Positions 2,123-60,875 of a DNA stretch of 62,754 bases are shown in pieces. Each line of letters opens with the position of its first letter. Within the stretch, counting starts at the first letter, position 1. This stretch comes from an uncultured Lachnospiraceae bacterium. Lineage in GTDB: Bacteria > Bacillota > Clostridia > Lachnospirales > Lachnospiraceae. The position numbers were made by a program, and so were the translations under genes. A model generated the notes under the pieces. The model searched no databases, was not told the origin of the DNA, and saw nothing but the letters and a program-made list of their open reading frames with translations. The DNA lies in NCBI GenBank assembly GCA_902780385.1, contig CACZFF010000028.1, positions 1 to 62,754 of the forward strand, read 5' to 3'.

Positions 2123-3604
2123 TTATTTGTGATATAGTTTTTTGCTCTCGTAGCGGGCTTCGCAGGTCTGATTGACACCGAGCTTTTTGAAGACACCTTC
2201 GTCGATCTGCGAGAGAATGACAGAGGAGTGGGCGTCGAGCCCTGCCAGCAGGGGGAGGGCGTCGAGGGCTTTTTTGGCATTCTCATCCTCTACGGCTGCG
2301 ATTGCCAGGATGATGAGGATCTCATTGAGGTGCAGCAGGGGGCTGCGCTCGCCCAGATGGTCGACCATGAGGTTCTGGCTCGCCTCGATCATCACGGGAG
2401 AGAGGAGTTTGACCTGTTCCGAAATGTTGCCTAGATATTTGAGGGCATTGAGCAGCAGGGCGCTGGAGGCTCCCAGAAGCGCCGTGGTGCGTCCGGTGAG
2501 AATGGTCCCGTCAGGCATCTGCATGGCAGCTGCAGGGCCGCCTGTCTCCTCCTGGCGCACGTTGGCTGCCATGATGACGGGGCGGTCGCTCACGGAGATC
2601 TTTGCCTTTTTCATCAGGAGCTCGATCTTGTAGGCGGGTTCCTCGGATGCATTGCCCTTGCGGTACTCACACAGGGCCTGGCAGTAGCGGCGGATGATCT
2701 CCTGATTTGCAGCCTGTCGGCAGACCTCGTCGTCGCAGATGCAGAAACCGACCATGTTGACACCCATATCAGTGGGGGATTTATAAGGAGATTCGCCCTG
2801 GATCTTTTCGAAGATCGCATTGAGAACGGGGAAGACTTCTACGTCCCGGTTATAGTTGACGGCTGTCTTTTCATATGCCTCGAAATGGAAGGGATCGATC
2901 ATGTTGATGTCGTCCAGATCGGCCGTCGCTGCCTCGTAGGCGAGATTTACAGGATGGTTGAGGGGAAGGTTCCAGACCGGGAAGGTCTCGAACTTGGCGT
3001 AGCCTGCCTTGATCCCGCGCTTGTTCTCGTGGTAGAGCTGGGAGAGGCAGGTCGCCATCTTGCCGCTGCCGGGACCGGGGGCTGTGATGACCACAAGGGG
3101 ACGGCTGGTCTCGATATAGTCGTTGCGGCCGAAGCCCTCATCGCTGACGATCAGCGGAATATTGGAGGGATAACCGGAGATGGGATAGTGGCGGTAGACC
3201 TTGAGCCCCAGAGCCTTGAGCTTCTTTTCGTATGCGATGGCGGAAGGCTGCCCGGCGAAACGGGTCAGGACAACACTGCCCACGAACAGACCGTTGGAAG
3301 TGAAGGCGTCCACGAGGCGGAGCAGGTCCATGTCGTAGGTGATACCCAGATCGCCGCGGACCTTGTTTTTCTCAATATCACCCGCATTGATGACGATCAC
3401 GATCTCCACCTGTTCGCGCAGGGCCTTCAGCATAGTGATCTTGGAATCCGGCGCAAAACCGGGAAGGACTCTGGAGGCATGATAATCATCGAAAAGCTTG
3501 CCTCCGAATTCCAGATAAAGCTTGCCTCCGAACTGGGCGATCCGCTCCTTGATGTGACTGGACTGCGTCTGTAAATACTTGTCATTATCAAAACCGATCT
3601 GCAT
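2123..3604 (-). CDS. DUF1846 domain-containing protein
   Basis: A 493-residue soluble protein of the DUF1846 family, widespread in Firmicutes and Actinobacteria and without an agreed function. The start at 3604 (MQIGFDNDKYLQTQSS) follows a GGAGGAG ribosome site; an upstream in-frame ATG at 3625 lacks one. A glycine-rich nucleotide-binding-like loop, APGPGSGKMA, lies near residues 175-184 and is the most conserved stretch I can see. There is no signal peptide or membrane segment. It is transcribed alone from a good promoter (TTGCGG-18-TATAAT) and stops at a shared terminator. Identity as DUF1846 is firm; biochemical activity is not known to me. Confidence 0.9.
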   Translation of the reverse strand: MQIGFDNDKYLQTQSSHIKERIAQFGGKLYLEFGGKLFDDYHASRVLPGFAPDSKITMLKALREQVEIVIVINAGDIEKNKVRGDLGITYDMDLLRLVDAFTSNGLFVGSVVLTRFAGQPSAIAYEKKLKALGLKVYRHYPISGYPSNIPLIVSDEGFGRNDYIETSRPLVVITAPGPGSGKMATCLSQLYHENKRGIKAGYAKFETFPVWNLPLNHPVNLAYEAATADLDDINMIDPFHFEAYEKTAVNYNRDVEVFPVLNAIFEKIQGESPYKSPTDMGVNMVGFCICDDEVCRQAANQEIIRRYCQALCEYRKGNASEEPAYKIELLMKKAKISVSDRPVIMAANVRQEETGGPAAAMQMPDGTILTGRTTALLGASSALLLNALKYLGNISEQVKLLSPVMIEASQNLMVDHLGERSPLLHLNEILIILAIAAVEDENAKKALDALPLLAGLDAHSSVILSQIDEGVFKKLGVNQTCEARYESKKLYHK

Positions 3605-60210: not shown

Positions 60211-60240
60211 TTGACAGCAACTTCCGCTTTCGTGTAATAT
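60211..60240 (+). promoter_or_regulatory. Sigma-A promoter of the SAM-riboswitch transcript
   Basis: TTGACA (60211-60216), 18-base spacer, TAATAT (60235-60240); predicted start about 60247, at the riboswitch P1 helix. Confidence 0.85.
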
Positions 60241-60243
60241 TAA

Positions 60244-60387
60244 TCATGCCTATAGGGAGTGCGCGAGAGACAAGCTCGATGACCGCACAGCAACCTGCTG
60301 ATCACTGCAGTAAGGTGCTAAAGCTTGAACGATGGGTGTGAATCGTGATCTTTGCTGCACCTGTCTTAACGATGGGTGCTTTTTTTA
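60244..60387 (+). promoter_or_regulatory. SAM-type riboswitch (S-box / SAM-I-IV-like) with terminator
   Basis: Core features of the S-box aptamer are visible: CGAG-AGACAAG-CTCG-ATGA (P3 with the conserved AUGA, 60264-60281), CAGCAACC (about 60288-60295) and AAGGTGCTAA (about 60312-60321). P1 can form from TCATGCC (60244-60250) and GGTGTGA (60335-60341); P2 from GTGCG/CGCAC (60259-60263, 60284-60288). A terminator, GCACCT / GGGTGC plus eight Ts, follows (60357-60387). AACGATGGGTG occurs in both the P1 3' strand and the terminator, so GCACC can pair with either. That is the mutually exclusive switch expected if SAM binding favours termination. The usual kink-turn sequence is not obvious, suggesting the SAM-I/IV variant. 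Confidence 0.78.
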
Positions 60388-60479
60388 TTGTATTTTCATT
60401 GATAAGCTGACAAGCTTCGGCTCATGTCCGCACTCCCGGGAAATCAGATTATCTTTATCTTTACAGGAGGACGACATCT

Positions 60480-60875
60480 ATGAAGAAATCGCTGAGAAAA
60501 GAGAGAACCGTGACAGAGCTTCTGGCTGTGAAAAACAAAAGCCTGATCGACAGGATCCGGTACAGGAATCTGCCGCGCCATACCTTTATTTACTGCAGAA
60601 GCCGGAACATTGCCGAACGATTCCTTGCCGATGCAGAGGCGGAAGGCTTCACCTTCGGGGACGGTAGAAAGCCTGCAGAAAAAGAATATGATGATATTTT
60701 TTCTCTGCATGATGACCTCACGATCTCCTATACCGGATGGGCAGGACATGTGCTGTTCAGAAACGCCGTCGGGAACCTTATACGCATCGACTACGGGAAA
60801 TATATTGCGGGAGCTTCGGATTATCAAATGCCCTGCGCACGCGGGCGGAAAAACAGATCGCCGCGTCCTTGTTGA
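60480..60875 (+). CDS. Unknown 131-residue protein under SAM-riboswitch control
   Basis: Starts MKKSLRKERTVTELLAVKNK after a strong AGGAGG site. It is basic at the N-terminus, with a mixed alpha/beta middle (TFIYCRSRNIAERFLADAEA, then ISYTGWAGHVLFRN) and a short Cys/Arg/Pro tail. No signal peptide, membrane helix or metal motif is evident, and I recognise no family. The clear riboswitch in front predicts a role tied to methionine or SAM supply, such as regulation, transport support or recycling, but the protein itself does not show one. It is the only gene between that leader and fba. Confidence 0.7.
   Translation: MKKSLRKERTVTELLAVKNKSLIDRIRYRNLPRHTFIYCRSRNIAERFLADAEAEGFTFGDGRKPAEKEYDDIFSLHDDLTISYTGWAGHVLFRNAVGNLIRIDYGKYIAGASDYQMPCARGRKNRSPRPC

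Follow-up and report, generated by a model that had tools for sequence, protein, structure and literature searches.

Introduction

Among the closest described relatives of the RNA discussed here is the SAM-I (S-box) aptamer, whose core nucleotides are listed in the excerpted text of PMC3764141, among them a G11-C44-G58 triple for the methionine part. According to the available portions of PMC6890682, SAM-IV shares the pocket, has no P4, and carries a pseudoknot PK-2 with a P5 stem-loop as well as a four-nucleotide turn. SAM-I/IV is described in the same portions as having an undivided P2, no PK-1 and a P4, and the excerpts of PMC2864571 describe its P2 internal loop as missing. Rare SAM-I variants, in turn, reject SAM and sense spermidine; their changes lie in J1/2 and in the P3 internal loop, as far as the excerpted part of PMC10853860 describes them. 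Riboswitch linkage is among the best ways to place an uncharacterised gene in a pathway. Here, we analyse a leader and a small gene on a stretch of 62,754 bases, which as a whole we call the window.

Results

An earlier note on this DNA had proposed a SAM-type riboswitch, and the covariance search agrees: with cmscan, the Rfam family RF00162 (SAM) matches the forward strand at 60247-60338 with 57.5 bits (E 1.1e-10), above its gathering cut-off of 44.4 bits, as the sole Rfam match at gathering threshold in all 62,754 bases. Only two RNAs of this type are found in the 3.3 Mb of the window's genome; the other has a P4, precedes metK and reaches just 26.8 bits with the model R1 described below. 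The alignment of the window aptamer to RF00162 covers the full length minus 17 deleted model positions, which constitute the P4 region. On the forward strand, the remaining parts follow as helix P1 (60247-60253/60332-60338), helix P2a (60259-60263/60284-60288), the kink-turn nucleotides (60264-60266/60278-60283), helix P2b (60267-60269/60275-60277), P3 (60289-60319) and the pseudoknot PK-1 (60271-60274/60324-60327), formed between CAAG in the P2 loop and CUUG in J3/4.

The note had further considered the kink-turn to be lacking and had pointed to the SAM-I/IV type, and in both respects it has to be corrected. P2 of the window aptamer contains the SAM-I turn GAG ... GAUGA, with the tandem G.A nucleotides G19, A20, G35 and A36 all present, the last three being invariant in 30 aptamers; the helix that is missing is P4. 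SAM-I/IV identity was rejected, as P2a/P2b, the kink-turn and PK-1 are present and RF01725 is silent: at E 0.001, neither this model nor RF00634 (SAM-IV) has a match in the window's genome. The assertion that S-box core motifs are kept fared better. With the numbering mapped by ourselves, the window retains every SAM-I nucleotide listed in the excerpts of PMC3764141 except U4, which is a C paired with G89. At position 10 of J1/2, the Rfam consensus and almost every relative have an A, where the window and its close kin carry a G; A10 is absent from that excerpted list, yet conserved in Rfam. The leader thus appears to hold a SAM-I-type aptamer minus one helix, and because P4 is absent from it, we file it as a P4-less SAM-I variant and not as a plain member.

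Besides the Rfam score, this assignment draws on covariation among relatives, including the pseudoknot. In our alignment A8, which comprises 30 aptamers and whose structure was named from Rfam's alignment, 93.9% of the cells are paired. Changes on both sides occur in 15 of the 28 pairs, compared to a shuffled mean of 7.5 and with none of 500 shuffles as high; the count of further pair types, 28, was reached by 26 of 500 shuffles. All cells of the four PK-1 pairs are paired (100%), three of the four pairs changing on both sides. Eleven core positions are invariant in the 30 aptamers (G11, A12, C45, A46, A47, C48, G69, U70, G71, A86 and U87), while G19 varies in a few relatives, G43/C59 are exchanged jointly in 5 of the 30, and P1 pair 4 is C-G in 29 of 30. 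From A8, and hence from aptamers linked to the gene family, we built model R1, which favours their like: in 250 Lachnospiraceae genomes it yields seven matches of at least 87.9 bits, in four genomes, with all others at 47.4 bits or below. In 391 genomes of the window's taxonomic class it yields 23 matches of at least 75 bits, with a less clean score gap, as the tail spans 48.6-66.1 bits among the matches listed.

Around the aptamer, the leader shows the elements of an attenuator. A promoter-like TTGACA-18-TAATAT just upstream (60211-60240, forward strand) agrees with the consensus in 10 of 12 bases, in line with the near-ideal promoter announced earlier, albeit the promoter scan alone, with 3 such sites in the region against 1.4 expected, is close to chance. 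The same holds for the intrinsic terminator (60357-60386, forward strand), which was found by sequence scan and folding as a 9-pair stem (60357-60365/60371-60379) followed by T7: it is where the note had placed a strong terminator, but one hit against 0.8 expected is hardly above chance for the scan alone. The duplication of AACGATGGGTG, at 60328-60338 and 60368-60378, was confirmed together with the alternative pairing ascribed to it. Within it, GATGGGTG at 60331-60338 holds the P1 3' strand and recurs at 60371-60378 in the 3' arm of the terminator. The 5' arm can accordingly engage in either 8 pairs with the first copy, forming a putative antiterminator between 60331-60338 and CACCTGTC at 60358-60365 (60331-60365 overall, forward strand), or 9 pairs with the second, forming the terminator; the antiterminator helix is mutually exclusive with both P1 and the terminator. 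This layout recurs. An antiterminator helix of at least 7 pairs is found in 22 of 30 leaders of the aptamer class, window included, and for each of these 22 helices no more than 4% of shuffled arms do as well. A permissive script reports a terminator-like hairpin in all 30 leaders, although L029 and L032, where the gene starts about 45 nt past the aptamer, have no convincing terminator there. The MFE structure of the whole leader is the terminated form, with the terminator rather than P1, and its stability is not unusual (z -0.67; 44 of 200 shuffles fold equally well). A ribosome-binding-site-like AGGAGG (60465-60470, forward strand) lies 9 nt before the ATG of the 131-codon ORF.

In the mechanism that we propose, P1 would close on the first GATGGGTG copy at high SAM, whereupon the terminator would form and the gene would be off. 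At low SAM, the first copy would pair with CACCTGTC, and RNA polymerase would read into the 131-codon gene. As it is with SAM that P1 would close on the first copy, termination is expected at high SAM, and we are fairly confident that the leader is a transcription-attenuation riboswitch of the SAM-I type without P4, off at high SAM and linked to a small gene. The opposite sign, with SAM turning the gene on, would result if SAM-bound P1 used the second copy, so that the hairpin of the first copy with CACCTGTC became P4 and the terminator arm was taken up. Such an arrangement is conceivable insofar as the P1 5' strand of the window can pair equally with either copy, 7 pairs each, and in five relatives (L012, L042, L043, L045 and L053) Rfam's own match favours the longer register, reaching the second copy and taking the intervening hairpin for P4. 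Accordingly, 31 of the 36 linked RF00162 matches are 85-95 nt in length and five are 106-124 nt, with Rfam running to the second copy; four of the five long-register relatives were cut at the first copy for A8. However, all 30 first copies retain the P1 A-U letters conserved in SAM-I (A86 and U87, the partners of A6 and U7), whereas 4 of 30 terminator arms (L031, L038, L046 and L052) have lost them, and an on-switch would be senseless for metK, which the same aptamer class precedes. Counted by script, P1 has more pairs with the first copy in 12 of 30 leaders, with the second in 3 and equally many in 15, counts for which the script, anchored on AT of the first copy, picked a wrong second site in several rows. 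We hence regard the on-switch as improbable and retain an off-switch at high SAM.

The gene behind the leader (60480-60875, forward strand) encodes a protein of 131 residues without a match in Pfam, NCBIfam, PHROGs or PADLOC, as the earlier claim of a gene without recognised family would have it. When 19 or 25 of its relatives were scanned against the same libraries, only weak matches of one or two members emerged, the best with E 0.0012, and no description of the gene family was found in the full-text literature of open-licence papers, main text only. It thus seems to be a member of an undescribed family, and for the window protein a beta-alpha-beta-beta-alpha-beta core is predicted at about residues 34-110. 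Among four close copies, dN/dS is 0.145-0.217 in five of six pairs, indicative of purifying selection, and 0.593 in the closest pair; given the low values in the five pairs, the ORF is a real gene. A spurious ORF beside an old S-box, for which one could cite the lack of a known family, is contradicted by these ratios and by the linkage of aptamer and gene in both directions described below, and can hardly be believed. The window copy is situated between asnS and a class II fructose-bisphosphate aldolase gene. The notion that it is the only gene downstream therefore holds in part: the 131-codon gene does follow the leader, but the aldolase gene is next on the same strand (ATG 61002), and since our scan found no terminator between the two, cotranscription may be possible.

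Searching by protein alone, we obtained 42 homologous places in Clostridia genomes, viral contigs and one phage. Nine are in 7 of 195 genomes (window included); six more come from a search positive in 6 of 397 genomes of the bacterial family and five more from one positive in 6 of 391 genomes of the class (window included in both); a further 12 were contributed by 20 loci, 8 of which were already known, nine by viral contigs and one by a Ruminococcus phage. The places are not all independent, with the proteins of L032 and L033 being identical. In one member (L038:2635-3258), also behind a SAM aptamer, the family protein is fused to about 120 N-terminal residues without Pfam match, and genome G266 has aptamer and gene three times, on three contigs (L017, L019 and L020).

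The note had suggested checking whether homologues also follow SAM riboswitches, and the outcome is strongly positive: in 36 of the 42 places, window included, an above-cut-off RF00162 match lies upstream on the same strand. Five places have sequence at hand yet no such aptamer. Upstream of L009, RF00162 scores 33.1 bits, below the cut-off, and R1 64.4; at L015 only the 3' half of the aptamer is found (23.5 bits with R1); L006, a frame-broken gene copy, L016, which has a different N-terminus, and L018 show no aptamer match upstream. At L008, the contig begins inside the gene. The family gene is not always first, as it comes second behind a MORN-repeat ORF at L007/L039 and behind two other ORFs at L046.

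In the reverse direction, two exact DNA patterns, themselves taken from linked aptamers, retrieved 36 stretches of viral contigs, 33 of which have an R1 match. The family gene directly follows 26 of these 33 P4-less aptamers; six of the 26 genes repeat others, leaving 20 distinct proteins. For six of the 33, the protein search had already turned up the contig; five of these are among the 26, and the sixth, L144, is the contig of L046. One short contig, L028, carries two P4-less SAM aptamers (1858-1945 and 3340-3429), with the family gene directly behind the first only. Judging by these predicted aptamers, other Clostridia of gut and rumen have the same pair, as do phages. Because aptamer and gene recur together in both, regulation by SAM probably belongs to the gene's role.

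In bacteria the link is looser, and the aptamer class also stands before genes outside the family. Among the 23 R1 matches in the 391 genomes, eight precede family members, namely six (window included) plus two remote ones (L094 and L102). Directly behind two others is metK (L103 and L109); L107 is followed by an N-formylglutamate amidohydrolase gene and then metK, L099 by a partial amidohydrolase ORF and L092 by an ADP-ribosylglycohydrolase. Behind the remaining 10 are other genes or none that is clear, for the most part small and without known family. L115 and L116, at 57 and 55 bits and 84 and 90 nt, also stand before metK (L116 by sequence only), such that metK is found behind the P4-less class, of the same type and length, in five loci, in one of them (L107) as the second gene.

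Some of the other genes recur as well. N-formylglutamate amidohydrolase-like ORFs (PF05013) occur behind P4-less SAM aptamers at L085:1608-2525(-), L099:1897-2376 (partial) and L107:1671-2420, an unexpected link of SAM control to this family. The protein behind the L092 aptamer (96.5 bits with R1) is an ADP-ribosylglycohydrolase-SseB domain protein (L092:1753-3027). A second recurrent family of small proteins is represented by L090:1675-2046, L118:7316-7705(-) and L127:2277-2726, with a phmmer E of 6e-15 between L090 and L118 and a much weaker value for L127. Three more related pairs of small proteins follow such aptamers: L091:1664-1873 with L101:1175-1423(-), L100:1656-1955 with L105:1646-1951, and L112:1673-2011 with L113:1663-2013, L112 and L113 being behind aptamers of 61-62 bits with R1. 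For these three pairs, hhalign found no homology to the window family (probability at most 2.7%).

Discussion

The best reading of the locus is a mobile cassette of promoter, P4-less SAM-I riboswitch and small gene that would be off at high SAM. SAM is the likely ligand, because metK follows the same aptamer class and the core pocket is kept; the metK genes appear to be the best sign of this. A changed ligand has a precedent in the spermidine-sensing SAM-I variants (PMC10853860, in the excerpted text), and in the class described here P4 is gone, P1 pair 4 is almost always C-G, the window's clade has a G at J1/2 position 10 and the majority of linked genes are not SAM genes. Set against the description of the spermidine class in those excerpts, the window has its P3 internal loop, G11 and A12 unchanged, and A10 replaced by G in its clade. 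With the eleven core positions from G11 to U87 invariant and metK behind the class in five loci (L116 by sequence only), a change of ligand is unlikely, and SAM remains our choice.

As for the protein, our guess is an accessory role with a tie to SAM or to DNA methylation. Possibly it is a small accessory protein of phage type that is of help to the host or the phage during SAM shortage or after methylation has drained the pool. A related possibility, to be entertained with the same reserve, is a phage counter-defence or methylation-related protein whose SAM sensor times the gene to SAM drain by methyltransferases. Homologues in a phage and in viral contigs would fit, as would a predicted fold weakly resembling uncharacterised phage proteins. 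A motif scan of 30 phage loci called putative DNA-methyltransferase-like ORFs in 12 of them, as a raw count. At L012, a convergent neighbour annotated as hypothetical carries a C5-methyltransferase motif, with DNA methyltransferase as the annotation of the next gene. However, four of these 12 repeat a single sequence and several more belong to one clade, so that one old arrangement may explain them; furthermore, PADLOC gives no match, and the window copy has asnS and the aldolase gene as its neighbours.

The classical S-box role, in which the gene would serve SAM or methionine supply, is likewise no more than tentative. A supply gene would suit an off-switch by SAM; metK, too, is served by the same class, once (L107) behind the N-formylglutamate amidohydrolase gene, and in just two related species the family gene is followed by one for a TauE/SafE permease. 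Against this, the gene is present in phages, is rare (6 of 397 genomes of the bacterial family, window included) and has no conserved metabolic neighbour in the loci inspected. For the sulphur or methyl-metabolism component that the note had envisaged, support was not found: by eye, no conserved sulphur gene stands beside the family gene at the loci inspected. Returning to the accessory role, we would venture, as a speculation, that Clostridial phages and mobile elements have a regulon-like set of small accessory genes, with this family at its head, and that a P4-less SAM sensor dedicated to them answers changes in the host SAM pool, for example a drain by DNA methyltransferases, with the protein acting on SAM-dependent methylation or its consequences.

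The near-fixed link to SAM, seen on viral contigs as well as on chromosomes from several Clostridia families, makes an unannotated family directly testable. It also presents a SAM aptamer that kept its core while shedding P4, and SAM sensing in phages beyond the methionine and cysteine genes that are its usual setting. Our search of the full-text literature, covering the main text of open-licence papers, turned up no account of a P4-less SAM-I subclass.

Among the known classes, the spermidine-sensing variants (PMC10853860, excerpted text) resemble the window aptamer in being rare SAM-I variants with their own gene set, but they keep four stems, whereas the window class is without P4 and its P3 internal loop is unchanged. 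SAM-I/IV (RF01725) shares the SAM core; in all three features given in the excerpted descriptions, the window aptamer is the reverse, with a P2 divided into P2a and P2b, PK-1 present and P4 absent. SAM-IV (RF00634), as portrayed in the excerpts, has the shared pocket and the absence of P4 in common with the window aptamer; it is described there with PK-2/P5 and a four-nucleotide turn, and the covariance score sets the window RNA apart from it. The fullest agreement is with SAM-I (RF00162), which has the same core, P1, P2a/P2b with kink-turn, P3, PK-1 and terminator-based layout and matches above its cut-off; the window aptamer departs from it in having no P4 and in controlling, as it seems, a gene that is no known sulphur gene.
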